Assembly: GCA_027728065.1 (NCBI GenBank) | Contig: JAQBVO010000008.1 | Span: 1-62,592, forward strand | Reading direction: 5' to 3' | Source: Actinomycetota bacterium | GTDB lineage: Bacteria > Actinomycetota > Actinomycetes > Nanopelagicales > Nanopelagicaceae | DNA: 62,592 nt | Shown: piece after piece, positions 1 to 13,580 of the stretch | Numbering within the stretch: position 1 is the stretch's first letter | How the letters are laid out: each line of letters begins with the position of its first letter | The notes under the pieces: model-generated | The model's input: the letters and a program-made list of their open reading frames with translations, nothing else | What the model was told of the DNA's origin: nothing | Database searches by the model: none | Translations under genes and position numbers: made by a program

Positions 1-18
1 AGGGTAATGACTGGACAT
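1..18 (-). CDS. Possible first codons of a minus-strand gene running off the left edge
   Basis: Read on the minus strand there is an AAGGAGAG ribosome-binding sequence (plus 22-29) followed at proper spacing by ATG (plus 16-18) and codons for M-S-S-H-Y-P to the edge. Only six codons are visible, so the product cannot be named. The good Shine-Dalgarno is the only support. Confidence 0.25.
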
Positions 19-51
19 ATTCTCTCCTTTTTAGAGGGTGGAAGTGTCTAG

Positions 52-336
52 TGTTTTTCGCTCAGGCCCGCCGCCTTATTAATCTGCGGATGGTGTTCAA
101 TGGGCGTCAATATCTCGGGAAATGCTTCTATTCGTACATACACAGATACTCACTTCTATGGAAGATCGTGGGGAGTTTACATCTTTACCTATCTATCTCT
201 TAGTGCAGTAGGAGCACCAATTTTGGGTTGGATAAACCAAAATTTCTCACCCAGAATTGCTGTGATATATGGGGCAGTTATGGCGCTGATGATGTCCTTG
301 TATGTGCTCATTCGCTTTCGTCCGGGGCGGCCATAG
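52..336 (+). pseudogene. C-terminal remnant of an MFS transporter
   Basis: The frame is open from just after a stop at 49-51. From about position 76 it reads like the last third of a drug/siderophore-type major facilitator: a membrane segment, then T-D-T-H-F-Y-G-R-S-W-G-V-Y, which matches the family pattern 'R-G-R-v-m-g-l-Y', then S-A-V-G-A-P-I-L-G-W and a final hydrophobic helix. A full transporter has about 400 residues and 12 helices; here only about 80 are left, and no other part is seen upstream in any frame. An ATG at 100 could start a 78-residue peptide but has no ribosome-binding site. I read it as a dead gene truncated by whatever brought in the neighbouring cassette. Confidence 0.6.
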
Positions 337-403
337 CCCGAAAACTGGAAATTAGGGGATTTCCACCTAAATCTTTAATTGATCAAAATTCTGCTGAAAA
401 CTC

Positions 404-431
404 TTGACATTCAAATTTTCCCTTGTAATTT
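404..431 (+). promoter_or_regulatory. Likely promoter of the sugar-transport operon
   Basis: A perfect TTGACA (404-409) is followed after 16 nt by the weak -10 candidate TAATTT (426-431). It stands 43 nt before the chosen start of the permease gene and directly before the palindrome at 436-453, the normal place for a repressor-controlled promoter. The -35 is convincing, the -10 less so. Confidence 0.45.
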
Positions 432-435
432 AGTT

Positions 436-453
436 TCTGGAATCAATTCCAGA
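436..453. promoter_or_regulatory. 18-bp palindrome, probable repressor operator
   Basis: TCTGGAAT-CA-ATTCCAGA has perfect 8-bp arms around a 2-bp centre. It lies immediately downstream of the putative -10 and about 20 nt before the permease start, so a bound dimer would block transcription. It lacks the central CG of most LacI operators and does not match the GTATAC core of many GntR sites. No regulator gene is visible nearby, so the cognate repressor is unknown. Confidence 0.6.
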
Positions 454-474
454 GCTTTTAGAAGAGGTGGCGTG

Positions 475-1467
475 TTGACCGAATTCACACCTGTGCTTAA
501 AGTTAAAAAGCGTTTCAAATTGCCTGAAGAGACGAGCGTGGTTATTGCCTTGCTCATTCTGATCGCGATTATTGGAGCACTTCGTCCAACTTTTTTGAAA
601 CCTGTTAACCTGCTGAATCTTTCCGCGAGTTATGCAATCGCCGCACTCCTTGCAGGATGCATTGTATTCCTCTTAGCCATGGGCGAGATCGACCTTTCAT
701 TTGGTTGGATTCTTAACCTCTCTGCTGTACTTGCTGGTTTAGCAATGATAGCCGGGGTCCCAATCTGGATCTCAGTATTTATAGGCATTGCCGCTGGTAC
801 TGCTATGGGTGCGCTCAACGGAGTCTTAACTGTTGTTATGCGATTACCGCTGATTATCGTAACGCTGGGAACAGCCTCCATTTTTCAAGGTACATCTCTT
901 ATCTCTAACAAATCAGGTTCCGTCGTTCCAACAGATAAAGAGATCACTGGGCATATTTTCTTTAGAGCTCTTGGTGGACAAATTGATTCGCCAGTACCAA
1001 TAATCCTAATTTTTGTGGTACTCGCATTCTTTGTGCTACATCTAACCTTGCATAAGACTCGCTTTGGTTATCGGATTCTTGCAATTGGAAGTAATCCTGA
1101 GGCGGCAAGGCTTGCTGGTATTCCCACTAAGAAGATCAAGATTCAAGTGTGTGCCTTGATGGGTGGCGTTTCTGGAGTAGGTGGCGTTCTTTTTCTCGGT
1201 TTCCGTGGGGCAGTCGATCCTTCAACTGGGGGTCAGATGCTTCTACCTGTCGTCGCGGCGGCGATCATTGGTGGCACACCACTCTCTGGAGGAGCAGGGA
1301 CTGTATGGGGCTCACTCTTCGGCGCATTAATTGTCGGCGTTATTGGAGTAGGTGTTGTCTTTATTGGCATAAATGCGGTCTGGGGAACTTTGGTTACAGG
1401 GTTAGTCATCATCTTTGCTATTGGCGTTGATCAGATTGTCCGTGTCCGAAAAAAACGTTTCAAATGA
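475..1467 (+). CDS. Sugar ABC transporter permease, RbsC/XylH type
   Basis: Membrane subunit of a carbohydrate uptake ABC transporter (BPD_transp_2 family). The 330 residues contain about nine or ten hydrophobic segments. The stretch M-G-E-I-D-L-S-F-G near residue 70 matches the family motif G-x-I-D-L-S, and E-A-A-R-L-A-G-I in the C-terminal half is the usual coupling region. I chose the TTG at 475, which has GAGGTG five nt upstream; a GTG at 472 is possible. Starting earlier would include the promoter and palindrome. It is the first gene of the cassette and is followed by its binding protein and ATPase. Rhamnose systems often have two permeases; only one is present here. Confidence 0.88.
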   Translation: MTEFTPVLKVKKRFKLPEETSVVIALLILIAIIGALRPTFLKPVNLLNLSASYAIAALLAGCIVFLLAMGEIDLSFGWILNLSAVLAGLAMIAGVPIWISVFIGIAAGTAMGALNGVLTVVMRLPLIIVTLGTASIFQGTSLISNKSGSVVPTDKEITGHIFFRALGGQIDSPVPIILIFVVLAFFVLHLTLHKTRFGYRILAIGSNPEAARLAGIPTKKIKIQVCALMGGVSGVGGVLFLGFRGAVDPSTGGQMLLPVVAAAIIGGTPLSGGAGTVWGSLFGALIVGVIGVGVVFIGINAVWGTLVTGLVIIFAIGVDQIVRVRKKRFK

Positions 1468-1528
1468 AGCAAGAAAATCACTCTGCCCAGAAGGGGTAGA
1501 AGCTGGATCGACTAAGAAAGGTAGACAG

Positions 1529-2635
1529 ATGAAAGAAAAACGCAAAAATCGGCTCCGTGTATTAGCCCTTGCAACAGCAATGGCAATTACAGCAGGCGGC
1601 CTAGTTTCGTGTAGTAATAGCGATGAAGCCGCTAGCGAAGAAGAACTCACTATCGGCTTTGTAGTGCATGTAATTGGTAACCCATTCATTCAACAGATTA
1701 TTGATGCCGCTGAAATGGCTGCTGCCGATCTTGGAGTAACTATTAAAGTTACGGGCCCGGCTGGTGCTGAAGGTGATGCGCAACTTGTTGCGGTGCAGAA
1801 CATAGCCGCCTCAGGTGTTGATGGAATTGCAACTTCGGTGCCTTCAGCATCTATGGTAAACGGCTTAAATGAAATTATCGAATCAGGAATTCCAATCGTT
1901 CAATTTAATGGTCTAGGAGTAGGCGTAAATGCCCCATACGTTGGCGAGAAGTCAGTTGCATCGGGTCGAATCCTCGGTCAGATGGTTCTTGACAAAATCG
2001 GCGGAACCAGCGCAAAGGGCAAAGTTATAGTTGGTAACTGCTATCCAGGATTCCCAGTTCTTGAAAATCGTCAAAAAGGTGTACTTGAAAGCCTAAGTCA
2101 AGCAGCTGGAATCAAAGTGGTGGGGCCATCGGATGTGAAGGTTGACGCAGCTGCAAACTTTGCTGCATGGCAAGGCCTTCTCGCCGCTAATTCAGATGCA
2201 CTAGCAATGGTAGGTCTCTGTGCACCAGATGTTGAGAGCATAGGAAAAGTCAATATTGCTGCAAAGAACACCAAGACAATCGGTGGCGGCTATGACCTCA
2301 CAGTAGGAAACCTTGAAGCACTAGCAAATGGTTCTGCGCATATCTCATTAGGCCAGACTCCATTTATTCAGGGCTACCTTCCTGTTTATATGTTGGTCGA
2401 CAGCATTAGGAAGAAAATCGCGATTAACAAGGCAGGATTTGTTGATGCAGGAACTGAAATTGTTACCGCAACTTCGGTAACAGAGCCTTTCGATCTTCCA
2501 GCATTAACTTTTGCTGATCTCCAAGCGATGGCAACATCGAAGGAGAAGACTCGTTCATATTACGAGCCGGTCGTTCAGGGCTACATCAAAAACTGGCAAG
2601 AAAACTTAAAGCCAATTTCTGACGAGTCTTCCTGA
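1529..2635 (+). CDS. Sugar-binding lipoprotein of the ABC transporter
   Basis: Substrate-binding protein of the periplasmic-binding-protein-4/RbsB class, 368 residues. A basic N-terminus and hydrophobic stretch end in the lipobox L-V-S-C with the lipidated cysteine at residue 28, so it should be anchored outside the membrane. The mature part starts with L-T-I-G-F-V-V-H-V-I-G-N-P-F, typical of the first beta strand and ligand loop of ribose/xylose/rhamnose binders, and D-G-I-A-T-S-V-P near residue 100 is the second typical loop. The ATG at 1529 is preceded by a weak AAGG and begins the signal peptide directly; upstream codons in frame would overlap the permease end. The sugar is not readable from sequence, but the mutarotase gene downstream suggests a 6-deoxyhexose. 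Confidence 0.85.
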   Translation: MKEKRKNRLRVLALATAMAITAGGLVSCSNSDEAASEEELTIGFVVHVIGNPFIQQIIDAAEMAAADLGVTIKVTGPAGAEGDAQLVAVQNIAASGVDGIATSVPSASMVNGLNEIIESGIPIVQFNGLGVGVNAPYVGEKSVASGRILGQMVLDKIGGTSAKGKVIVGNCYPGFPVLENRQKGVLESLSQAAGIKVVGPSDVKVDAAANFAAWQGLLAANSDALAMVGLCAPDVESIGKVNIAAKNTKTIGGGYDLTVGNLEALANGSAHISLGQTPFIQGYLPVYMLVDSIRKKIAINKAGFVDAGTEIVTATSVTEPFDLPALTFADLQAMATSKEKTRSYYEPVVQGYIKNWQENLKPISDESS

Positions 2636-2672
2636 TTGATCGTTAAAACAGTTGTAAATCGGAGGTGGTAAG

Positions 2673-4196
2673 TTGAACGGAGATCACGACATGAGTAGTG
2701 CAAGTACTCATGGAGTGATCTCCGTTCGATCACTTTCAAAGCGTTATGGCGGCGTTCAAGCCCTTGATAGCCTGGATTTAGATTTGGGACGAAACATGGT
2801 CCATGCCATCGTTGGCGAAAACGGCGCCGGTAAATCGACCTTTATGAAGATTCTTTCCGGTGGGGTTATCGCAGATTCAGGTACCATTGAAATTGATGGA
2901 GTGATTTATCCACAGATAACTGTCTCGTTGGCTCGCGAACTTGGTATCGGCATAATGTATCAGGAGTTACGCCTCTTCCAGCATAGAGATGTATTGACTA
3001 ATCTCTTTCCTGACCGCGAAATTCGTCGTGGTATGTTCATTGCTCGCAAGGAAATGGAAGAAATTGCTCGCCCAGTGTTGCAAGCAATTGGGCTTAAAGT
3101 TGATCTTTATGCCACTTTGGGTGATTTAGCAATCTCAGATCAACAATTAATTGAATTAGCTCGAGTAATGATTGAGAAGCCATCACTTTTAATCTTGGAT
3201 GAACCGACTTCTGCATTAAATGCTCGTGAAAGTGAGCGTTTACTTGAATTGGTTAGACAATTACCCGCACAAGGCACAACAGTTGTTTATGTTTCACATC
3301 GATTAGATGAAGTTTTTGCTGTAGCAAATCAAATCTCGGTCATGCGCAATGGCTCTCTCGTATTCTCACGCCCAACGACTGAGTTAGATCGTTTAACGGT
3401 AATTGCAGGAATTGTTGGTGAAGAGAAATCAGAGCGAATTAGTCGTGACTCTAAACATTCAAATGTAGCGGTAGGGGGAGTTAATTTATTGCAAGTTGAA
3501 AGCCTTAAGAACTTCGGCCAGATTCGTGATATTTCCTTAACAGTGCGCGCCGGTGAAATCGTTGGTGTTGCTGGTTTAATTGGGTCAGGGGCAGATGAAC
3601 TACTTGAAACCCTTTTCGGAGCCAAACCAATATCTTCTGGCGTTATTACTCTTGAAGGAAAGATACAAGACTCGCCTTCTACTCAGAATTCGGTTAAGGA
3701 AAAAGTTGCGCTAGTCCCCGCTGATAGAAAACGGGTTGGTTTAATGATGGATCGGAGTGTGGAGGACAATTTCTCACATGTTGCCGTAGGGGGGCATACC
3801 AATGGAACTGTGCTCATCACAAAAGCAGGATTGACGGCGCGCGCTGCACGCTTAGTTGAGCGCTTTGATGTAAAGACTGAGAACCTGGATATTCGGGTAG
3901 GAAACCTCTCTGGGGGAAATCAGCAGAAGGTTGTGATTGGTAAGTGGTTAGAAATTAACCCACGTCTCGTCTTGCTAGATGATCCGACTCGAGGAGTTGA
4001 TATTGGGGCTAAATCCGAACTTTTCCGTCTCGTCCGCGAGATGGCCGATTCGGGGAAAGGGGTTCTCTTCCGTTCGACCGAGATTGCAGAGTTAACTTAT
4101 CTTTGTGATAGGACTTATGTTATAAAAAATGGAGTCACAACCAGAGAAGTTTCAGATGTTGGTGAAGCAGAGCTGATTAAACTAATAAATGAATAA
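2673..4196 (+). CDS. Sugar ABC transporter ATP-binding protein, two-domain RbsA/XylG type
   Basis: Energizing subunit of 507 residues with two nucleotide-binding domains. Domain 1 has Walker A G-E-N-G-A-G-K-S-T (near residue 48), the usual degenerate signature I-S-D-Q-Q and Walker B L-L-I-L-D-E-P-T. Domain 2 has the typical degenerate Walker A (G-L-I-G-S-G-A-D-E), an intact signature L-S-G-G-N-Q-Q and L-V-L-L-D-D-P-T-R-G-V-D. This one-good, one-altered arrangement is normal for RbsA/XylG/AraG. A very strong GGAGGTGG at 2661-2668 sits 4 nt before the TTG at 2673. An ATG at 2691 is too far from it. The start codon is therefore probably TTG. Confidence 0.9.
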   Translation: MNGDHDMSSASTHGVISVRSLSKRYGGVQALDSLDLDLGRNMVHAIVGENGAGKSTFMKILSGGVIADSGTIEIDGVIYPQITVSLARELGIGIMYQELRLFQHRDVLTNLFPDREIRRGMFIARKEMEEIARPVLQAIGLKVDLYATLGDLAISDQQLIELARVMIEKPSLLILDEPTSALNARESERLLELVRQLPAQGTTVVYVSHRLDEVFAVANQISVMRNGSLVFSRPTTELDRLTVIAGIVGEEKSERISRDSKHSNVAVGGVNLLQVESLKNFGQIRDISLTVRAGEIVGVAGLIGSGADELLETLFGAKPISSGVITLEGKIQDSPSTQNSVKEKVALVPADRKRVGLMMDRSVEDNFSHVAVGGHTNGTVLITKAGLTARAARLVERFDVKTENLDIRVGNLSGGNQQKVVIGKWLEINPRLVLLDDPTRGVDIGAKSELFRLVREMADSGKGVLFRSTEIAELTYLCDRTYVIKNGVTTREVSDVGEAELIKLINE

Positions 4197-4238
4197 ATAG
4201 AGTAAGCAAAATAGGAAAAACTAGAATAAGGAGATGAA

Positions 4239-4559
4239 ATGATTAAACGAGCTTTTATCATGAAATTAAAGCCAGGGGGGCTAGCTGAGTACAAGCGTCT
4301 TCATAGTGAAATCTGGCCAGAGTTAGTTGCAGAGATCAAACGTCAAGGAATCGCGCAAATTACCATTTTTGAAAATGATCCAATGCTCTTTCTATATTCT
4401 GAAATTTCAGATTCTGATGCATGGGATCGCCTTTGGCACGCTGAGATTCACGATAAATGGAGTGAGTACATGGCACCGCTTATGGAATTTAACTCTGATG
4501 GGATAGTTGATTCCAGCGAAGTCCGCGAAGTATTTAACCTTCGTACTAATACAAATTAA
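4239..4559 (+). CDS. L-rhamnose mutarotase family protein (RhaM/DUF718)
   Basis: Small cytoplasmic enzyme of 106 residues that interconverts the alpha and beta anomers of L-rhamnose or a related 6-deoxyhexose after uptake. It matches the family from the first residues: R-A-F-I-M-K-L-K-P-G, then E-Y-K-R-L-H-S-E-I-W-P-E-L. Tyr18 and His22 fall at the positions of the catalytic residues known in the E. coli enzyme. AAGGAG lies 5 nt before the ATG. It sits between the transporter and two dehydrogenases, and is the best clue to the sugar imported. Family members also act on L-fucose, so substrate identity stays open. Confidence 0.85.
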   Translation: MIKRAFIMKLKPGGLAEYKRLHSEIWPELVAEIKRQGIAQITIFENDPMLFLYSEISDSDAWDRLWHAEIHDKWSEYMAPLMEFNSDGIVDSSEVREVFNLRTNTN

Positions 4560-4568
4560 AAGCAAAAA

Positions 4569-5375
4569 ATGGTAAAGAGCCATATTGCACTTGTCACTGG
4601 GGCAAGTAGGGGTTTAGGCCGCGAGATTGCAATCGGCCTTGCCAGAGATGGTTACAGAGTTCTCGCTGTTGCCCGGAGTAAATCCGCTCTTGATTCACTT
4701 GTTGAAGATCATCCGGGTTCAATCTTTGCTTATGAAGCCGATGTGAGCGATAACAAAACTGTTGAACAGTTAGCTAAGAGAGTAAAGAAAGAGCAAGGAA
4801 CTATCCAGGTTCTTGTTAATGCTGCTGGAGTTTTTGGGCCCATTGATCTGATTCAGAATAGTGATCCTGAACAATGGGCAAAGACAATTCTGATTGACAC
4901 TTTGGCACCATATTTCACCACCCGTGTTTTTCTTGCCGGTATGCTAGAGAAACGGTGGGGAAGAATTATCAATCTCAGTTCCGCAGCATCACTACATCCC
5001 CCAGGCTCCCTCAATAGTGCCTATGGAACTGCAAAAGTTGCGCTCAATCAATTTACTCGCCATCTCGCTGCAGAAATTTCAGGGTCTGGAGTAACTGCAA
5101 ATGTGATTCATCCTGGTGATGTGAAAACACAGATGTGGGCTGATATTAAAGAGAAAGCGCTCGCGTTAGGTGAAACCGGAAAGGATTACACTTCCTGGGT
5201 TGACTGGGTTGCGGAAACCGGTGGTGATGATTCGAAGAAGGCAATGGAACTTGTTCTTGAAATTGTCTCATCCTCTTACGATTTGATTAATGGGCGATTC
5301 TTATGGATTCGCGAACCGCTTCAGGCTCCTATTGCAAGCTGGGAAGATCCCGTTGATGCCAGGCCGTGGAAATAA
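4569..5375 (+). CDS. Short-chain dehydrogenase/reductase
   Basis: NAD(P)-dependent oxidoreductase of 268 residues with a Rossmann fold. The cofactor motif T-G-A-S-R-G-L-G is at residues 10-17, N-A-A-G near 90, a catalytic serine in L-S-S-A-A-S and the Y-G-T-A-K active site near 155. The C-terminus carries a longer tail (R-F-L-W-I-R-E-P) than a minimal member. It lies 9 nt after the mutarotase gene with no clear ribosome-binding site, so it is probably translated by coupling. In the non-phosphorylated rhamnose/fucose routes the first step is a dehydrogenation by an SDR enzyme; this gene could do that, but motif data alone do not show it. Confidence 0.85.
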   Translation: MVKSHIALVTGASRGLGREIAIGLARDGYRVLAVARSKSALDSLVEDHPGSIFAYEADVSDNKTVEQLAKRVKKEQGTIQVLVNAAGVFGPIDLIQNSDPEQWAKTILIDTLAPYFTTRVFLAGMLEKRWGRIINLSSAASLHPPGSLNSAYGTAKVALNQFTRHLAAEISGSGVTANVIHPGDVKTQMWADIKEKALALGETGKDYTSWVDWVAETGGDDSKKAMELVLEIVSSSYDLINGRFLWIREPLQAPIASWEDPVDARPWK

Positions 5376-5377
5376 AT

Positions 5378-6112
5378 ATGACAAAGGCCAAGACTGCACT
5401 CATTACTGGTGCTTCGCGCGGTATTGGCTATGGAGTTGCGTTGCGGTTAGCGCAGGAGGGAATTAAAACTGCAATCGTCGGGAGAGATCGTAAAAGAATC
5501 GAGGAAGCAGCAAAAAAAATTACTGAAGTTGCGGGTATGCAAACACTTGCAGTCGTTGGCGATGTTTCTATTTGGAGTGACTGCGTTAGTGTCGTAGAAG
5601 AAGTTGCAAAGGAGTTTGATTCTATAGATGTACTTGTTCCCAATGCTGGAGTTGGAGTCATTGGGTCAGTAGAGGAGTCAAATCCTTTAGACTGGGCGGT
5701 GATGATGGAAACTAATTACTTAGGCACCGCGCACATTGTTAAAGCTGTATTACCTGTAATGCAAAGACAAGGCACAGGAGATGTGGTGGCAATTGTTTCA
5801 GCTGGGGGTACTAAAGGTTATCCAGAATGGTCAGGGTATTGCGCAACCAAGTGGGCAGTTATGGGATTTATGGATAGCTTTGCGCAAGAAGTCATTACGC
5901 AAGGAATTCGTGTTTCAACACTATGTCCCGGTGGAGTCGATACAGTTTTTTGGGATAACCTCAATAAAGATATGTACAGTGCAGGATCTGTTGGACGGAG
6001 CAAGTTAATGAGTCCAGCAGATGTGGCCGAACTAGTGATGCTTCAAATTAATCTGCCGCGTAATGTATTGCTCAAGAACGCGCTGTTTTTCCCTACAAAT
6101 GAATGGCATTAA
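5378..6112 (+). CDS. Short-chain dehydrogenase/reductase (second)
   Basis: A second SDR enzyme of 244 residues with T-G-A-S-R-G-I-G near the N-terminus, N-A-G-V-G near residue 85 and the active site Y-C-A-T-K near 155. It is clearly a different subfamily from its neighbour, so this is not a recent tandem copy. The ATG at 5378 follows the previous stop by 2 nt and is preferred to a GTG at 5366 that would overlap it. In non-phosphorylated deoxysugar pathways a second dehydrogenase acts on the keto-deoxy acid; that role is only a suggestion. The dehydratase and aldolase or hydrolase steps of such a route are not in the window. Confidence 0.85.
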   Translation: MTKAKTALITGASRGIGYGVALRLAQEGIKTAIVGRDRKRIEEAAKKITEVAGMQTLAVVGDVSIWSDCVSVVEEVAKEFDSIDVLVPNAGVGVIGSVEESNPLDWAVMMETNYLGTAHIVKAVLPVMQRQGTGDVVAIVSAGGTKGYPEWSGYCATKWAVMGFMDSFAQEVITQGIRVSTLCPGGVDTVFWDNLNKDMYSAGSVGRSKLMSPADVAELVMLQINLPRNVLLKNALFFPTNEWH

Positions 6113-6188
6113 AAAGCATGCGCTCAATCAAGCCCTAGATCCCCGAGGCATTCTTAACCCTGGGAAAATCTTCACCACAGGCCGCTAA
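6099..6188 (+). pseudogene. C-terminal tail of a FAD-linked oxidase (relic)
   Basis: The frame ending at TAA 6186-6188 reads L-N-Q-A-L-D-P-R-G-I-L-N-P-G-K-I-F before the stop. The A-L-D-P-x-G-I-L-N-P-G-K-I-F block is the C-terminal signature of GlcD/DLD-type FAD-binding oxidases, proteins of about 450 residues. Nothing of the upstream 95% is present; the frame runs into the end of the preceding dehydrogenase, where an ATG at 6099 may start a 29-residue peptide by chance. It marks a deletion or insertion junction between the sugar cassette and older sequence. Confidence 0.7.
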
Positions 6189-6300: not shown

Positions 6301-7227
6301 CTACTTAATAGCTTTCACTATCTGTTCGCTTAGCCATTTTCGAAGATTATAAGCATCATCGACCATGAAACCATGGCCAAAGAAACCATGAATCATTCCT
6401 GGATACTCCTTCAAAGTTACTGGGATTCCAGCTTTTTCTAATGCAGCTGCGTAGTTGGCACCTTCATCACGCAAGACATCGTGCTCTGCTAGTGCAATGA
6501 TTGCTGGAGCAACATTCTTAAAATCTGTTGCTCGCGCAGGAACTGCATATTCGTTACGCAAGTGTTCTTCTGGCACATAGAGTCCCCAACACCATTGCAT
6601 ACCGACTTTTTCTAAACCAAAACCAGTTTGGTGGGCTAGGTAGGACGGGGATTCAAAATCTGTATCTAGGCATGGATAGATAAGCATTTGATAAGCCAGC
6701 TTCACATTGCCTGTAAAAGCAGCTTTGAGTGCAACTGCAGCAGCTAAATTGCCACCTGCACTATCACCTCCCACACCAATCTTTGCCGGATCAATTCCAA
6801 AGCGTTCCGCATTTTTAGCAACCCACAACAATCCGGTATAACAATCATCAAAAGGAATTGGGAACGGATGTTCAGGTGCTTTTTGATAGTTAATTCCAAT
6901 AACTACAAATCCAGTTTCGGCTGCGATGTTAGACATCTGTGCTGCATATCGAAGCGTCCAGCTAAACACCCAACCACCACCATGAAAATAAACCAGAGCA
7001 GGAGCATTAGATTTAAGGTTTTTAGGGCGATAAATCACTGCATGAAGATCAGCTGTGGGGGAAGTGAAATAGGTATGTTCAGTATGAACATCATCAGAGA
7101 GTGGGCCTGCATACTTTAAGTAGTTAGTCCAATCAGCTCGACGTTCTTCTAGCGTTGCTTCAACTGGCAATGGGTTGTTAATAGCGGTGTATTCAAGGAA
7201 AGCCTTAGCCTGTGGATGAATTGTCAT
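6301..7227 (-). CDS. Alpha/beta hydrolase, hormone-sensitive-lipase type esterase
   Basis: Carboxylesterase of 308 residues, probably cytoplasmic as there is no signal peptide. The HSL-family oxyanion motif H-G-G-G-W near residue 82 and the nucleophile G-D-S-A-G-G with Ser near 156 are both clear. The acid is probably the Asp of E-H-D-V-L-R-D, and the base the His of M-I-H-G-F near the end. Substrates of the family are short-chain esters, so a specific role cannot be set. The ATG at 7227 is favoured over a GTG at 7233 because a TATCGT hexamer ends 7 nt before it, as at leaderless genes elsewhere. It is a single gene facing the cassette. Confidence 0.87.
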   Translation of the reverse strand: MTIHPQAKAFLEYTAINNPLPVEATLEERRADWTNYLKYAGPLSDDVHTEHTYFTSPTADLHAVIYRPKNLKSNAPALVYFHGGGWVFSWTLRYAAQMSNIAAETGFVVIGINYQKAPEHPFPIPFDDCYTGLLWVAKNAERFGIDPAKIGVGGDSAGGNLAAAVALKAAFTGNVKLAYQMLIYPCLDTDFESPSYLAHQTGFGLEKVGMQWCWGLYVPEEHLRNEYAVPARATDFKNVAPAIIALAEHDVLRDEGANYAAALEKAGIPVTLKEYPGMIHGFFGHGFMVDDAYNLRKWLSEQIVKAIK

Positions 7228-7234
7228 GGGCACT

Positions 7235-7240: not shown

Positions 7241-7291
7241 ATCTAAATTACAACGGCTATCGCTGTTCTCCAGGAACACTTACGCTCAATG

Positions 7292-7335
7292 TGGGTTGTG
7301 TAGGGATCGAACCCCCAACCTGGTGATTAAGAGCT
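7292..7335 (-). pseudogene. 3' half of a tRNA-Lys(CTT) gene, possible attachment-site scar
   Basis: Read on the minus strand this is the anticodon loop CTCTTAA (anticodon CTT, Lys), the 3' anticodon strand TCACC, variable region, a T-arm with GGTTCGATCC and an acceptor strand ACAACCC plus discriminator A. The 5' partner strands (GGGTTGT acceptor, D-arm, GGTGA) are missing: the bases before the loop do not pair. The homology stops exactly at the anticodon loop, as expected when a tyrosine integrase uses the tRNA 3' half as its core site. One T-stem mismatch suggests decay. No integrase gene and no intact tRNA-Lys are in the window. Confidence 0.7.
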
Positions 7336-7341
7336 ATCTGA

Positions 7342-7347
7342 TATATT
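7342..7347 (+). promoter_or_regulatory. -10 element of the rhodanese gene
   Basis: TATATT, 6 nt before the ATG at 7354. There is no Shine-Dalgarno sequence. The region where a -35 would lie is in the tRNA remnant. Confidence 0.5.
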
Positions 7348-7353
7348 TCGCAA

Positions 7354-7749
7354 ATGAGATTTAGATCTACTATCGCACTTTTTCTCACCGCTATCACCCT
7401 GACCTCCTGTGCTCAAAGCACAACTATGGGGATCAATAATGTGAATGCGCAGAGTTTTCTGGCAAAAATTACTGATGAGGCTGTGACGGTAATTGATGTT
7501 AGATCCGCCCAGGAGTATGCCCAGGGACACCTAGCTAATTCAGTAAATATCAATGTTGAATCAGATCAATTCACCACCCAGATTGCAAATTTAGATAAAG
7601 AAAAAGAGTACGCCCTCTACTGCCGAAGTGGCAGACGATCAACGATAGCCGCAGATCAGATGGCTAAAGCTGGCTTTAAAACAATTACCAATTACAACCA
7701 AGGTGGCTTTCCTGATTTAGCTAAGATGGGTGTGGCAACGAGTAAGTAG
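7354..7749 (+). CDS. Rhodanese-domain lipoprotein
   Basis: A 131-residue exported protein. The N-terminus is a short signal peptide with lipobox L-T-S-C (Cys at residue 19), so it should be a lipoprotein on the outer face of the membrane. The rest is a single rhodanese domain: V-I-D-V-R-S-A-Q-E-Y, G-H-L-A-N-S-V-N-I and the active-site loop C-R-S-G-R-R-S near residue 90, with the catalytic cysteine present. Such proteins move sulfane sulfur or handle reactive sulfur species; the actual partner is unknown. It stands alone between the tRNA remnant and an SPFH relic. Confidence 0.85.
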   Translation: MRFRSTIALFLTAITLTSCAQSTTMGINNVNAQSFLAKITDEAVTVIDVRSAQEYAQGHLANSVNINVESDQFTTQIANLDKEKEYALYCRSGRRSTIAADQMAKAGFKTITNYNQGGFPDLAKMGVATSK

Positions 7750-7800: not shown

Positions 7801-7852
7801 AAGGCCTAAAGAGTCTGCTCAGGTAGCGATGCTACTTACTCTTAAAGGCCTT
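7801..7852 (-). terminator. Hairpin at the end of the SPFH relic
   Basis: AAGGCCT-AAAGAGT pairs with ACTCTTAAAGGCCTT (one small bulge) and encloses an inner GTAGC-GAT-GCTAC stem. On the minus strand it is followed by TTTATTAATT, so it fits a terminator for the relic gene whose stop codon lies in the stem-loop. It may also receive transcription from the rhodanese gene. Confidence 0.55.
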
Positions 7853-8074
7853 CATGATCTGTTCGACTCCGCCACTGAGTTCTGCCGGAATTACCCAGAT
7901 TTTGCTCGCTGTTCCATTTGCAATTGCAGGGAGCTGTTGTAGATATTGATACGCCAATACCTTTTCATCGGGATTGGCTTGGTGCACAGCATCAAATACC
8001 AACTTGATCGCAGTTGCCTCACCATCGGCTCGTAATACTGCAGCCTGAGCGTCACCCCTGGTGGCACCTTTCTG
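7832..8074 (-). pseudogene. C-terminal fragment of an SPFH/band-7 (stomatin-like) protein
   Basis: An open minus-strand frame of 80 codons ends at TAG (plus 7832-7834). It reads A-T-R-G-D-A-Q-A-A-V-L-R-A-D-G-E-A, then A-N-P-D-E-K-V-L-A-Y-Q-Y-L-Q-Q-L-P and K-I-W-V-I-P-A-E-L. This is the end of the SPFH domain and the C-terminal helix region of prohibitin/stomatin homologues of about 300 residues. Just upstream, after Q-K-G-A-T, the frame meets a stop after four codons and no start, membrane anchor or N-terminal domain is found. The gene has lost its front, probably by deletion up to the adjacent terminator. Confidence 0.75.
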
Positions 8075-8102
8075 TAAAGAAGTGGTTTACCGGACCTAAG
8101 AC

Positions 8103-8120
8103 AACTGTGTAAAAACAGTT
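8103..8120. repeat. Small inverted repeat
   Basis: AACTGT and ACAGTT arms separated by six bases (8103-8120), just before the strong terminator. No known function is visible. Confidence 0.3.
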
Positions 8121-8130
8121 AATTAAATTT

Positions 8131-8179
8131 AAGGGCTACCTAACCGCCCAAAGTAGGCGGTGGTAGCCCTTAATTTTTT
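8131..8179 (+). terminator. Strong, probably bidirectional intrinsic terminator
   Basis: AAGGGCTACC pairs with GGTAGCCCTT, with an inner ACCGCC/GGCGGT stem and a small loop, followed on the plus strand by TTAATTTTTT. On the minus strand the stem is followed by TTAAATTTAATT, so it can also end the amidohydrolase transcript that arrives from the right. Confidence 0.85.
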
Positions 8180-8220
8180 GCTAAGATCTTGCTAAATACA
8201 ATTCCTTTACTAATTAAGAG

Positions 8221-9816
8221 TTAGCGGATTTTTATCCCGTTTTGGTAGAGGGCTTTGATTGCCACTGTGCAAACCTCACTGGGATCTATCTTGAGTGGGT
8301 TTTTCTCAAGGACAATAAAATCGGCCTTCATACCCACGTCTATCACTCCACGTTCATTGTTGCGAAACATTTGATAGGCAGCGTTTTTTGTATAGAAAAC
8401 CATGGACTCATCCATTGTGATCGCCTCGGTGATATTCCAGCCATCGCCATCTTTGATGCCAGGGTGCAGGCGATTAACCGGAACAGCTAGGGCGAGCAGA
8501 GGGATCTGACTCGTTACGGGCCAGTCACTACCAAAGGCGATCGTGGCACCGGCATCTATTAACCTGCGCAGACTGTACTGGCGATCATTTCGCAGCTTTC
8601 CAAGACGGGGCAGAATCAACTCTTTGTTCATTGAATCCATGTAGCACCAGAGAGGCTGAATATTTGCGATGACGCCTAAGCGCTTAAATCGCGTCATATC
8701 CTCATCACAGATTAACTGCGCATGCACAATTACTGGACGTCTATCCCATCTGGGGTTAACGCGCATCATGGCCTCGATGGCATCTAGGGCTTGCTTGACT
8801 GCGGCATCACCGATTGCATGTATATGTACTTGGTACTTATGCATATCAAACTCGGTCAAGGCATCTATAAGCTCATCATCGCTCCAGATCTTAATTCCGT
8901 GCGAGTTAAGATTATCTTCGTATGGATCGATTAGCGCGGCAGTACCGGCCGATAATGCGCCATCGGCTAAAAACTTAACGCTATTAGCTTTAATCAAATC
9001 AGGATGGGGCAATGCTGCGAACGCATCGCGCAGAGTATTGAACTCTTTAATCTTCTGGCTCCAGCTCCCTGGAGTTACTAGAAAGGAGAGGTTCATTGCG
9101 ATGGATAGATCTCCGGATTTTGCCGCAGCTAAATATGCCTGCGCCATATCTTTTTCAACCCATGAATCGATCGCCGCAGTAACGCCTGCATCTAGATATG
9201 CATTGCAGGCTCGTGCAATTGCGGCGACATCGCGCTCTATCGAATCTGGTGGAGCGGCATCGAGAATCAGTGCCATGGCATTTGGTTCGCGCAGGGTGCC
9301 TTTAGGGCTGCCATCGGCACGACGGGCGATTGTGCCGCCAGATGGATCTAGGGTTTTTTCCGTAATGCCGGCCTGTTCTAACGCCTCTGTATTGACCCAG
9401 ATTGTGTGGTGATCGACGGCAAGTAATACAACGGGGCGATCACTAACAACGGAATCTAGCCAGTGTGCATCAAAATCTCCACCACCGATAATTGCGGCTT
9501 CATATGCACCGCCAATAATCCATGGCTCGGCGGGGTTAAGGGCTGCAAAGTTTTTTACCTCGTTCAGTATTTCATCGAGTGAGTTAAGACCAGTGATCTT
9601 GGGGCCACCAACCTCACGTCCTGCAAAGATTGGATGAGCATGAGAGTCGATAAAGGCGGGCATAACAAAAGCCTTATTTAAATCAATGACTTCATCGAAA
9701 TCTGATGCTAGAGCTGCAGCGCCAATTGCAACAATGATCTGATCTTCGACCAGAATCCCATCAAAGAGCTCTTGTGCAGCCGACCAGCAGCGTGCATTAC
9801 GAAAGAGCGTGCGCAC
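8221..9816 (-). CDS. Amidohydrolase, YtcJ-like (amidohydrolase family 3)
   Basis: Metal-dependent hydrolase of 531 residues. A small N-terminal beta domain leads into D-S-H-A-H-P, the H-x-H metal ligands near residue 60. Later come H-I-H-A-I-G-D, V-H-A-Q-L and F-G-S-D-W-P-V, the remaining metal-site strands of the TIM barrel, and the C-terminal beta domain ends G-M-K-A-D-F-I-V-L-E-K-N. The natural substrate of the YtcJ group is generally unknown. It starts at GTG 9816, 18 nt after the stop of the Lrp-type gene, and probably shares its transcript. The coupling hints at control by, or sensing of, an amino-acid-like compound. Confidence 0.85.
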   Translation of the reverse strand: MRTLFRNARCWSAAQELFDGILVEDQIIVAIGAAALASDFDEVIDLNKAFVMPAFIDSHAHPIFAGREVGGPKITGLNSLDEILNEVKNFAALNPAEPWIIGGAYEAAIIGGGDFDAHWLDSVVSDRPVVLLAVDHHTIWVNTEALEQAGITEKTLDPSGGTIARRADGSPKGTLREPNAMALILDAAPPDSIERDVAAIARACNAYLDAGVTAAIDSWVEKDMAQAYLAAAKSGDLSIAMNLSFLVTPGSWSQKIKEFNTLRDAFAALPHPDLIKANSVKFLADGALSAGTAALIDPYEDNLNSHGIKIWSDDELIDALTEFDMHKYQVHIHAIGDAAVKQALDAIEAMMRVNPRWDRRPVIVHAQLICDEDMTRFKRLGVIANIQPLWCYMDSMNKELILPRLGKLRNDRQYSLRRLIDAGATIAFGSDWPVTSQIPLLALAVPVNRLHPGIKDGDGWNITEAITMDESMVFYTKNAAYQMFRNNERGVIDVGMKADFIVLEKNPLKIDPSEVCTVAIKALYQNGIKIR

Positions 9817-9834: not shown

Positions 9835-10068
9835 TTAATAAGTAACTGGGCAAGTCAAAGTTCGAGTAATACCTGGGACTGCTTGAACCTTTGACAAGAT
9901 GACACGACCAAAATCTTCCATACTAGGAGCCTCTGCGCGCATGATGACATCGTAAGGACCGGTGACGCCCTCGGACAGAGTCACACCGGCGATAGCAGAG
10001 GTCGCCTTGGCTACTGAATTAGCTTTACCGACCTCGGTCTGAATTAAAATATAGGCCTGTATTGACAT
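9835..10068 (-). CDS. Stand-alone Lrp/AsnC ligand-binding (RAM) domain protein
   Basis: A 77-residue protein made only of the effector-binding domain of Lrp/AsnC regulators: A-Y-I-L-I-Q-T-E-V-G-K at the start, G-V-T-G-P-Y-D-V-I-M-R-A in the centre and a final T-C-P-V. No helix-turn-helix domain is present. Such proteins form oligomers that bind amino acids and may modulate other regulators. AGGAAGGG lies about 9 nt before the ATG, so this one has a leader. Confidence 0.85.
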   Translation of the reverse strand: MSIQAYILIQTEVGKANSVAKATSAIAGVTLSEGVTGPYDVIMRAEAPSMEDFGRVILSKVQAVPGITRTLTCPVTY

Positions 10069-10129
10069 CGCTCTTCCCTTCCTCGGTGGCCCAAGGCTAC
10101 TTCAGAGATGGCTCTACTGACTAGTGGAT

Positions 10130-10135
10130 TAAGGT
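10130..10135 (+). promoter_or_regulatory. -10 element of thiL
   Basis: TAAGGT, 7 nt before the ATG at 10143. No good -35 was seen. Confidence 0.5.
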
Positions 10136-10142
10136 TAGAACT

Positions 10143-11063
10143 ATGAACTTTAATGAAATGCAGGTAATCACGGCGCTGGCGCAAATCTTCGCACACCCTG
10201 ATGCCGGAGTTCTTGTGGGCATTGGTGATGATGCCGCCGTCGTTAAAACTACATCTGAATCTGTAATTACTACCGATATGGCAGTGGAGGGCACACACTT
10301 CAATACGGCTTGGTGCGTAGCCTTTGATATTGGGCGCAAGATTACCGCGGCTAATCTCGCCGATATTTATGCCATGGGCGCAGTGCCACAGTATCTAGTC
10401 GTGGCCCTAACCCTCACTGGCGAGGAATCGATGGAGTGGATTACCGATCTTGCCCATGGAATCCACCACGAAGCCGCTAGTTGCAAAGTTGCAGTTGTCG
10501 GCGGTGATTTAGCGCGTGGTGCAATAAAAGTTATTTCGATTACCGCAGTCGGTAGCGTTAAAAAAGCGGTAAAGCGCAGCGGTGCACAGCTTGGTGATTT
10601 AATTTATATCTCATCTCTGCCTGGCTGGTCTGGCGCAGGCCTTAGCTTGATCGAAGGCGATGATCTCGATGACTTGCAGGCTTATGCACGTGAACAGTTC
10701 TGTGCTCCTAGCGTTGATTACTTCGCAGCAACTGCAATGGCAGAAGCGGGCGCTACTTCAATGTGTGATGTCAGCGATGGACTCATAACGCAGGCGAGTC
10801 AGATGGCCGATGCATCGCAGCTCTGTTTTAGCTTTGATAAGAGCGCCTTTAGCGCAGACCCCGAGTTCGTTGCTCTCAACGAGTTGGCCCAAAGATGTGG
10901 TGTTGATGTGTGGCAGTGGATCTTTGCAGGGGGAGAGGACCATGTTTTTCTAGCCACGGGCAGAGATTTGCCAGGCTTATGCGTTGGAAAAGTTATGCAA
11001 GGCTGTGGAACCATTGGCTTGGAGATGAAAAAAACGCCAGATACCTGGCGCCATTTTCTTTAA
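10143..11063 (+). CDS. thiL: Thiamine-monophosphate kinase
   Basis: Phosphorylates thiamine monophosphate to thiamine diphosphate, the cofactor used for example by the Dxs encoded at 44321. The 306 residues carry the family order: G-I-G-D-D-A-A-V near residue 30, T-D-M-A-V-E-G-T-H-F near 45, A-A-N-L-A-D-I-Y-A-M-G-A near 70, a G-G-D segment and C-D-V-S-D-G-L near 200. All are ATP- and metal-binding elements of the PurM-like fold. It converges on rpmB with a 17-nt gap. Confidence 0.93.
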   Translation: MNFNEMQVITALAQIFAHPDAGVLVGIGDDAAVVKTTSESVITTDMAVEGTHFNTAWCVAFDIGRKITAANLADIYAMGAVPQYLVVALTLTGEESMEWITDLAHGIHHEAASCKVAVVGGDLARGAIKVISITAVGSVKKAVKRSGAQLGDLIYISSLPGWSGAGLSLIEGDDLDDLQAYAREQFCAPSVDYFAATAMAEAGATSMCDVSDGLITQASQMADASQLCFSFDKSAFSADPEFVALNELAQRCGVDVWQWIFAGGEDHVFLATGRDLPGLCVGKVMQGCGTIGLEMKKTPDTWRHFL

Positions 11064-11080
11064 ATCTCTATAGTAAAAAA

Positions 11081-11266
11081 TTAGCGTGTAATTTTTCCAG
11101 CCTTCAGGCATGAGGTGCAGACGTTCTGACGCTTTGATCTAGCTCCAGCCATTGTACGTACTCGCTGAATATTTGGATTCCAACGTCGACGAGTCTTTAC
11201 CTGCGAGTGGGAGACGTTGTTGCCAAAGTTTGGCCCTTTGCCACAGATATCGCATGTTGCGGCCAT
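11081..11266 (-). CDS. rpmB: 50S ribosomal protein L28
   Basis: A 61-residue basic ribosomal protein with the N-terminal C-D-I-C-G-K-G-P and a later C-T-S-C pair, so it is the zinc-binding (C+) type. The body [16 protein letters not shown] is diagnostic. The start ATG has AAGGAG (plus 11274-11279) 7 nt upstream, and a TAGATT at plus 11284-11289 may be the -10. It is divergent from recG. Confidence 0.97.
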
Positions 11267-11408
11267 AGCTCTACTCCTTTGTGAATCTAGTAGGTGAATC
11301 GAAGAGTCCTTAGCGGACAGGGCGTAAGGCTATCGCGAAGGGCTAGGCCTGCGCCAATCCACGCGTGGCATGAGCTCGAAGAGTCCAAGGACAGGAGAGA
11401 ATCACTAC

Positions 11409-13580
11409 GTGGCCAACCTTAAGAGCAGGCTTTCGGATGTAATCGGTGATCGAACCTCGAAGGTTTTGGCCGATGCATTTGCCATCACAACCGTTGGAGA
11501 TTTACTGCGCCATTACCCGCGCCGTTATATGGTCCGCGGTGAACTCTCAAATATCGCCGAGCTAGAGCAGGGCGACGAGGTCACAATCCTGGCCGAGGTA
11601 GATAGTTCTACTCATCGCCCGATTCGTGGGCGCAAGGGCGGTATTTTGGAGGTTGTCGTAACCGATGGCCGCGACAAACTCTCGCTGACGTTTTTTAATC
11701 AATCCTGGCGCGAGAAAGAGTTAAAGGTTGGATTGCAGGGCTTATTTGCTGGCAAAGTCGGTATTTTCAATGGCAAAAAACAGTTATCTCACCCTGATTA
11801 TCAGATGGTGCCAGATGGTGCAGATGTAGATAGCGCGGTAGATAACTTCGCCGGAAAGTTTCTGCCGGTTTATCGCGCCACCGCCAAGCTGCCATCGTGG
11901 AAGATTTCACAGTGTATTCAAATGGCAATCGCCTCTCTGGATGATGTAAGAGATTATCTTCCTGAGCAGATTCGCATCGCACACAATTTCCCAACGCTGC
12001 AGGGGGCCTTAGTCCAACTTCATGCACCTGCTGATTTAGATCACGCCGATTTGGCTCGCGAACGGTTGACATTTGATGAGGCTTTTTTACTTCAATTAAT
12101 GTTAGTGATGCGGCGTAATGAGTTAAGAAAACTCAATACAATCTCACGTAAAACTATTAAAGGTGGGCTCTTAGAGGCCTTTGATGCATCCCTTCCTTTC
12201 CAACTCACCGGTGGACAACAAGATGTCATTAGCGAGATTGAGAGTGATTTAGCCCAGCCACATCCAATGCACCGATTACTGCAGGGAGAAGTCGGTTCAG
12301 GAAAGACGGTCGTTGCACTGCGCGCTATGTTGGCCGTAGTCGATAGTGGGGGACAGGCGGCCCTGCTTGCACCAACTGAGGTATTAGCCGCTCAACATCT
12401 GCGAACATTTGCAAAACTCTTAGGACCCTTAGCCCTTGGCGGCACCCTGGAAAGTGGCGATAAGGCGACACAGATCACGCTTATCACTAGATCGCAAAGC
12501 GCCCTTGCGCGCAAAGAGGCGTTAACACTGGCTGCAAGCGGTGGGGCAGGGATAATTATCGGAACGCACGCACTGCTGGGTGAAAAAGTTGAGTTCAAAG
12601 ATTTAGGTTTAATCGTTGTCGATGAACAGCATCGATTCGGCGTTGAGCAACGTGATGCACTTAAAGTTAAGGCACAACAGCCACCACACTTATTAGTAAT
12701 GACGGCAACTCCTATTCCGCGTACCGTGGCAATGACGGTATTTGGCGATCTTGATGTATCAACGTTGCGCGAACTTCCACTGGGTCGCCAACCGATAACT
12801 ACTCATGTGATCTCAGTTCTTGAAAAACCAGCCTTCTTAGAGCGTGCATGGGAGCGCATCCGAGAAGAGGTCGCATATGGTCATCAGGCCTATGTTGTAG
12901 CTCCACGCATTGAGAGTGGAAGCGATGAGAGCGCCGATATGGATTTCTTATTTGGTCTTGAATCGGCAGATATCGCTGCAGTAACCGAGCTCGCCCCGCG
13001 CCTGGCTAATGGCGGGCTCAAAGGAATACGTGTTGCCGAGTTACATGGCCGCCAGAGCGCCGATGTTAAGGACTCAACGATGCGTGCATTTGCCGCCGGA
13101 GAGATCGATGTTCTTGTATCTACAACCGTTATTGAAGTCGGCGTTGACGTTGCCAATGCAACGGTAATGGTAATCATGGATGCCGATCGATTCGGTGTCT
13201 CCCAACTTCATCAACTACGCGGCCGTGTAGGTCGGGGTAGATCGCCAGGTCTGTGTCTTTTGGTCACTACCGCCGCAGCCGACACCCCTGCCCGTGCACG
13301 CTTAGCTGCGGTGGCTGCAACGTTAGATGGCTTCGAACTCTCACGAATCGATCTAGAACAGCGTCGCGAGGGTGACGTGTTGGGTGCTAACCAATCGGGT
13401 ACACAATCACATCTTCGTCTATTGCGCGTTTTGCGTGATGAAGAAGTTATCCAAGCCGCGCGAGCCGATGCTGTGCAGATAATCACAGAATCATCAGATC
13501 TGGCAACTTTGCCTGTACTTGCAACAGAGGTAGCTTTAATGGCAAGAGATGCCGCTATCGATTATTTAGATAAGGGTTGA
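11409..13580 (+). CDS. recG: ATP-dependent DNA helicase RecG
   Basis: Branch-migration helicase that regresses stalled forks. The roughly 720-residue product has an N-terminal wedge/OB domain (L-L-R-H-Y-P-R-R-Y), helicase motif I G-E-V-G-S-G-K-T-V near residue 305, D-E-Q-H-R-F-G-V-E-Q (motif II), T-A-T-P-I-P-R-T (motif III) and Q-L-R-G-R-V-G-R-G (motif VI). I chose GTG 11409 because AGGAGAG lies 9 nt upstream; an ATG at 11370 adds 13 residues that look unlike the family. It is followed 3 nt later by rsmD, as in many actinobacteria. Confidence 0.95.
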   Translation: MANLKSRLSDVIGDRTSKVLADAFAITTVGDLLRHYPRRYMVRGELSNIAELEQGDEVTILAEVDSSTHRPIRGRKGGILEVVVTDGRDKLSLTFFNQSWREKELKVGLQGLFAGKVGIFNGKKQLSHPDYQMVPDGADVDSAVDNFAGKFLPVYRATAKLPSWKISQCIQMAIASLDDVRDYLPEQIRIAHNFPTLQGALVQLHAPADLDHADLARERLTFDEAFLLQLMLVMRRNELRKLNTISRKTIKGGLLEAFDASLPFQLTGGQQDVISEIESDLAQPHPMHRLLQGEVGSGKTVVALRAMLAVVDSGGQAALLAPTEVLAAQHLRTFAKLLGPLALGGTLESGDKATQITLITRSQSALARKEALTLAASGGAGIIIGTHALLGEKVEFKDLGLIVVDEQHRFGVEQRDALKVKAQQPPHLLVMTATPIPRTVAMTVFGDLDVSTLRELPLGRQPITTHVISVLEKPAFLERAWERIREEVAYGHQAYVVAPRIESGSDESADMDFLFGLESADIAAVTELAPRLANGGLKGIRVAELHGRQSADVKDSTMRAFAAGEIDVLVSTTVIEVGVDVANATVMVIMDADRFGVSQLHQLRGRVGRGRSPGLCLLVTTAAADTPARARLAAVAATLDGFELSRIDLEQRREGDVLGANQSGTQSHLRLLRVLRDEEVIQAARADAVQIITESSDLATLPVLATEVALMARDAAIDYLDKG

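Follow-up and report, generated by a model that had tools for sequence, protein, structure and literature searches.

Displaced tRNA fragments are a standard mark of genomic islands that occupy tRNA genes (PMC4383910, PMC9897764). Serial cassettes parted by partial tRNA copies have been described in Candidatus Actinomarinales (PMC7771536), and repeats of tRNA-Lys(ctt) lie between serial cassettes in Candidatus Methylopumilus (PMC10872708). In the textbook case, tyrosine integrases cross over at such genes through a 7-bp overlap located at the anticodon loop (reviewed in PMC8371274), and the half-site boundaries reported below fit it.

The window analyzed here is a 62,592-nucleotide stretch from a genome of the Candidatus Planktophila group (G000; 45 contigs, 1.4 Mb), which we searched by patterns and regions. 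We found that the minus strand of the window carries, from 7333 to 7290, the 3' half of a tRNA-Lys(CTT) gene reading CTCTTAATCACCAGGTTGGGGGTTCGATCCCTACACAACCCACA: the anticodon loop CTCTTAA, the 3' anticodon stem TCACC, the variable loop, the T arm, and the acceptor 3' strand ACAACCC with discriminator A, followed by two further bases (the half proper is 7333-7292). This fragment is identical to the genome's own intact tRNA-Lys(CTT) at 39 of 44 positions and to the genus consensus at 37 of 44; the runner-up position inside the window scores 26/44 in the same scan, and 100 simulated windows with matching dinucleotide composition peak at 29/44. On its 5' side, identities to the tRNA 5' half (9 of 31) are at chance level, with zero matching bases 5' of C32. 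These data demonstrate both a half gene and its boundary. They bear out a sequence-only reading of this DNA, which had recognized a minus-strand 3' half without a 5' half and had placed the end of identity at the anticodon loop; the exact edge it gave, 7335, overshot by two bases, since identity ends at 7333. ARAGORN found no tRNA in the window and Rfam gave no match there, both as a half gene would lead one to expect. The predicted fold of the relic was in no way notable (z = -0.41).

The sequence 5' of the crossover is presumably the end of an adjoining cassette or host flank. It is unlike the element ends of other genomes, save for GATAG in a core from the same genomic interval of a relative (L117), which has GATAG and CTCTTAATCAC in common with it. 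On the 3' side, a 12-nt exact run, TGAGCGTAAGTG, is shared with G013 and G033, and blastn matches run from the tRNA half into the flank in G013, G014, G024 and G033.

The same reading had called for a search for the intact gene and for integrases near either copy. The sole intact tRNA-Lys(CTT) found in the genome lies at C39:1917-1990 on the minus strand, and it shares the 3' half; a T-arm pattern search returned three copies, namely this gene, the window half and a half on C31. A 406-aa tyrosine integrase (C39:384-1604), with Phage_integrase and SAM-like N domains, begins ~310 nt downstream of the intact gene, and none lies near the relic. An intact potential donor with an integrase beside it is thus present in the genome. 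This integrase had no relative among viral contigs, and its matches among named phages were distant integrases only (<60% identity). Among viral contigs, the sole match to the half gene was a tRNA array of phage type that includes a full tRNA-Lys, and the element end CTACTTCCGYTAACTCTTAATCA matched none. The intact gene itself carries the T-stem variant TTCGATCCCGTC, with one G-G mismatch, versus TTCGAGTCCCTC in the genus (L025:1917-1990); this variant was probably donated by the adjoining element.

Several further observations concern this genome. Two more tRNA-Lys 3' halves, at L211:1501 (G000:C40:2923+) and L212:1501 (G000:C44:9183+), have a T arm one G shorter, TCGGGGTTCGATCCCC; the C44 half retains GGTGA 5' of the loop and sits between a transporter and a ROK-family kinase-like gene. 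The C31 stretch holds two tRNA-Lys cores ~230 nt apart, and a 68-bp stretch at the contig's left end (window 2-69) is identical to L024:1413-1480 on C31. Six tyrosine integrases with a SAM-like N domain are encoded on contigs C33, C34, C31, C15, C39 and C7 (loci L213, L216 and L218-L221), several adjoining tRNA genes (Val, Asn, Lys), versus none in most relatives tested.

Related genomes contain the same kind of half-site. Native tRNA-Lys(CTT) in the relatives occupies one conserved spot, by orn and the phosphate transporter (pst) genes, with variable DNA downstream. When 15 half-sites or cores from this genome and Planktophila relatives were compared, identity ended 0-1 nt before C32 in 13, and identity to the 5' half was 4-12 of 31 in the same set. 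A 14-base core pattern gave 20 matches in 15 genomes, versus one for the reversed control. In G014, an intact tRNA-Lys is followed directly by a truncated tyrosine integrase and, 4.1 kb away, by a 42/42 half-site; in G007, a half-site lies 10 kb from the intact gene. The tRNA-Lys of G033 is chimeric: its 5' GGGTTGT does not fit its own 3' ACCACCC, and the fitting, original ACAACCC half lies on another contig (L146:352 and L147:1946). Such a chimera is the trace that remains when an incoming element replaces the 3' half with its own.

From these results, we conclude that the relic is very probably an attachment-site scar left by tyrosine-integrase elements that target tRNA-Lys(CTT) specifically. 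We favor this reading over a decayed tRNA because of the sharp boundary shared among half-sites, the integrase or its remnant beside intact genes (here and in G014), and the displaced half of G033. The five substitutions relative to the 3' half of the intact gene indicate that the fragment is old, as would also be expected if a whole tRNA-Lys had been duplicated here and its 5' half had decayed by mutation or deletion; we regard that history as hardly credible, given a boundary at C32 as sharp as in most half-sites and a 5' half of which nothing is left (9/31). No tRNA gene stands at the ddl-thiL locus in any relative examined, where a gradually decayed gene in place had been looked for, and the shared boundary rules out in-place decay unless by coincidence.

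According to the mechanism that we propose, the elements would recombine inside the anticodon loop, with CTCTTAA as the 7-bp overlap and the stem halves as arms. Each would bring its own tRNA 3' half, rebuilding the gene on insertion, and each insertion would thereby leave a surplus 3' half. Two side observations touch on this target. In four close relatives (L178, L179, L183, L184), the anticodon stem of tRNA-Lys(CTT) is AGGCA/TGCCT instead of GGTGA/TCACC; such a stem would spoil the integrase arms and is possibly a host change closing the site. At L197:1501 (G067:C5) and L208:1501 (G065:C31), the core overlaps the 3' end of a gene, ..GGTGATTAAGAG / AGTGATTAAGAG; the gene is peptidase-like by eye, and its 3' end might be a third attachment site.

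Table 1. Features around the tRNA-Lys(CTT) half gene (window coordinates).
Feature	Position	Strand	Basis or remark
Sugar ABC transporter (permease, binding protein, ATPase), rhamnose mutarotase, two short-chain dehydrogenases	1..6112	+	Pfam
Alpha/beta-hydrolase (esterase)	6301..7233	-	Pfam Abhydrolase_3, E 1e-66; adjoins relic
Relic 3' flank, TTGAGCGTAAGTGTTCC..	7266..7291	-	Resembles one class of native tRNA-Lys downstream flanks
tRNA-Lys(CTT) 3' half	7290..7333	-	39/44 vs intact C39 gene; 36/42 vs genus consensus
Sequence 5' of crossover (..CAGATAG)	7334..7353	-	Unrelated to tRNA 5' half
Rhodanese-domain gene	7354..7749	+	Pfam Rhodanese, E 3e-18; between relic and band-7 remnant
Band-7/SPFH gene, truncated 3' end (last ~75 codons)	7834..8057	-	75% nt identity over 224 nt
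Core-like TCCGCTAACTCTTAATTAG across amidohydrolase stop codon	8205..8229	-	Sequence reading
Amidohydrolase gene (F2)	8221..9816	-	Pfam Amidohydro_3; synteny
Conserved chromosomal flank: 77-aa gene (rpmB by context), thiL, recG	9835..13580	.	Synteny: 8 named relatives, G014, G015

The surroundings of the half gene (Table 1) are rich in relics, as had been claimed: the end of a band-7 gene (8057-7834) lies on one side, and on the other, at ~6101-6187, is an in-frame C-terminal scrap that by eye is a candidate end of a FAD-linked oxidase. Leftwards from recG, the order is thiL, rpmB, amidohydrolase, band-7 end, rhodanese gene, relic, esterase and sugar-transport cluster. The amidohydrolase is a conserved neighbor of rpmB-thiL-recG in close relatives, and its homologue in G003 and G007 lies on the island beside native tRNA-Lys. 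The core-like sequence across its stop codon is similar to the element end TTCCGYTAACTCTTAATCACC; L114 reads ..TAACTCTTAA at this position. The frame of the band-7 remnant ends ..EQIMKAFKSK*, as does the intact gene in L117. A strong inverted repeat at 8098-8180 (AAGGGCTACC.ACCGCC / GGCGGT..GGTAGCCCTT) adjoins the truncated gene and is probably a terminator.

Synteny identifies the side that was inserted. In G014, the genes straight after ddl are rpmB, thiL and recG; in G015, the amidohydrolase comes first and thiL-recG next. L115 and L117 have NfeD and band-7 genes in the space between amidohydrolase and ddl, band-7 being the one that adjoins ddl. In this genome, ddl is missing from the window and is found at the left end of contig C29. 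Since ddl adjoins the rpmB block or the amidohydrolase in relatives, and here sits at the end of another contig, the DNA left of the relic (1 to ~7830) is an inserted island. Its sugar-transport cluster is absent among the thiL-recG neighbors of the other genomes mapped, and GC drops from 0.487 on the core side to 0.447 left of ~7830. By the same arrangement, the DNA to the right (band-7 remnant, amidohydrolase, rpmB, thiL, recG) is chromosomal flank in which cassette sequence amounts to no more than ~0.5 kb, the rhodanese gene, whose closest homologue among 60 relatives is 48% identical. We infer that C29 (the ddl side) and C2 (the window side) belong to one island; no overlap between the ends of these two contigs was found. 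It is very improbable that unrelated contigs were joined at a tRNA repeat during assembly: the 45-contig state of the genome would allow for it, but the relic departs from each of the other copies at several bases and is therefore not a shared k-mer, the reported contamination is 0.18%, and the same arrangement occurs in other assemblies.

The earlier reading had put the element on the right and supposed it lost since, and synteny reverses this placement. That the half was displaced by an element on the right, since deleted, at a former tRNA-Lys site agrees with the geometry of a displaced half, and the rhodanese and truncated band-7 genes do show deletion or rearrangement on that side. We nonetheless consider this improbable: tRNA-Lys stands at the orn/pst locus genus-wide, no relative has a tRNA at ddl-thiL, and the right flank is chromosomal within ~0.5 kb. 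In complete genomes, the ddl-recG locus lies ~510 kb (G015; locus at 511-517 kb) or ~110 kb (G014) from tRNA-Lys, and this distance indicates that no tRNA standing here gave rise to the half gene. The relic (ddl-thiL) and the intact gene (orn/pst, C39) occupy different loci and do not flank one contiguous element, as fragment and intact tRNA do at other half-sites (G014, G007). Several tandem partial copies separating cassettes are seen in the C31 stretch and in G007; the window locus has one 3' half only.

How, then, would a surplus half come to lie in an island between ddl and the amidohydrolase/rpmB/thiL/recG block? Cores of tRNA-Lys occur in the ddl-amidohydrolase interval, in the same orientation, in G000, G060, G061 and G065. 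In G061, an element end, TTACTTCCGTTAA (..CTTACTTCCGTTAA), runs straight into CTCTTAATTACC at the stop codon of ddl; CTCTTAATTACC is the reverse of the ddl stop region GGTAATTAAGAG, which differs from the tRNA core GGTGATTAAGAG by a single base. Over 60 nt, an element end on C31 in the window's genome and that of the G060 ddl island are ~80% identical (z 14.5), and the G061 end is similar to both. Such a direct joint of element end and ddl stop was seen in G061 only, most of the other 29 ddl junctions being without one, and the window genome's own ddl end, GGCAATTAGAGTTTAA, has a weak core only. No integrase gene was present in the parts of the ddl-thiL islands read, nor a PF14659 integrase in G060, G061, G062, G064, G066 or G067. 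Separately, the idea of a core at every ddl junction was not borne out across the 30 genomes.

A secondary attachment site at ddl is plausible. The likeliest entry would be integrase-mediated insertion at this site, the ddl stop GGTAATTAAGAG mimicking the tRNA core GGTGATTAAGAG. The relic would most likely be an internal junction of two accreted cassettes: the left one (esterase, sugar transporter and others) would start with the element-borne 3' half, and the right one would be reduced to little beyond the rhodanese gene, possibly its last remnant. More broadly, and tentatively, the Planktophila tRNA-Lys(CTT) integrases may make repeated use of a second site, at the ddl stop, where GGTAATTAAG mimics the anticodon stem-loop; ddl-thiL may be a tRNA-free hotspot fed from the tRNA-Lys hotspot, with off-site halves marking the traffic. 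We hold this generalization to be quite possible, short of probable.

The relic records either secondary-site integration or the transfer of a cassette already carrying the half. In the latter case, the half was made at native tRNA-Lys and later carried to ddl-thiL with a piece of the island, by homologous or illegitimate recombination or by inversion, with no integration at ddl. A precedent exists in Thermococcus, where inversion placed a tRNA fragment ~179 kb from the intact copy (PMC9897764). The relic's 3' flank also resembles a native tRNA-Lys flank, and a gene ~1.8 kb downstream of native tRNA-Lys in G015, within its island, is 85% identical to the esterase beside the relic, a finding that fits integration at ddl too. 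We consider such a transfer possible, if rather doubtful: cores recur in the same interval and orientation, with different cargo, in at least four genomes, and G061 has its junction of element end and ddl. Because of this recurrence and this junction, repeated site-specific insertion fits better than four separate rearrangements.

Since streamlined freshwater actinobacteria have few recognizable mobile elements, half-tRNA scars are among the few traces from which the building of their islands can be read. The half-sites described here fix the point at which the tRNA-Lys elements cross over and, through the chimeric tRNA genes, show 3' halves being swapped between species; they also point to another hotspot, invisible to tRNA-based island finders.

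With islands of the Islander type (PMC4383910; PMC9897764), the present system shares an integrase by the intact tRNA, a surplus 3' fragment at the other end and a breakpoint in the anticodon loop; unlike in those islands, the window fragment lies at another locus, with no integrase nearby. Additive flexible genomic islands likewise belong to streamlined aquatic bacteria and accrete cassettes serially with partial tRNA copies between them, the cargo in Actinomarinales being cell-surface sugar genes (PMC7771536); their known repeats lie beside the tRNA, whereas here cores also occur at a second locus without one. Tycheposons (Prochlorococcus; Methylophilaceae, PMC10872708) are similar in being tRNA-targeted cargo elements with a tyrosine recombinase in streamlined plankton, a likeness that covers these traits only. 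Secondary tyrosine-integrase sites (PMC8371274) similarly have an imperfect core resembling the primary one, and insertions there can become permanently trapped; the putative site at the ddl stop codon differs in being read from sequence alone, across several genomes. The kind of relic found here is thus already known, and its recurrence at a tRNA-free locus is unusual, a modest novelty.
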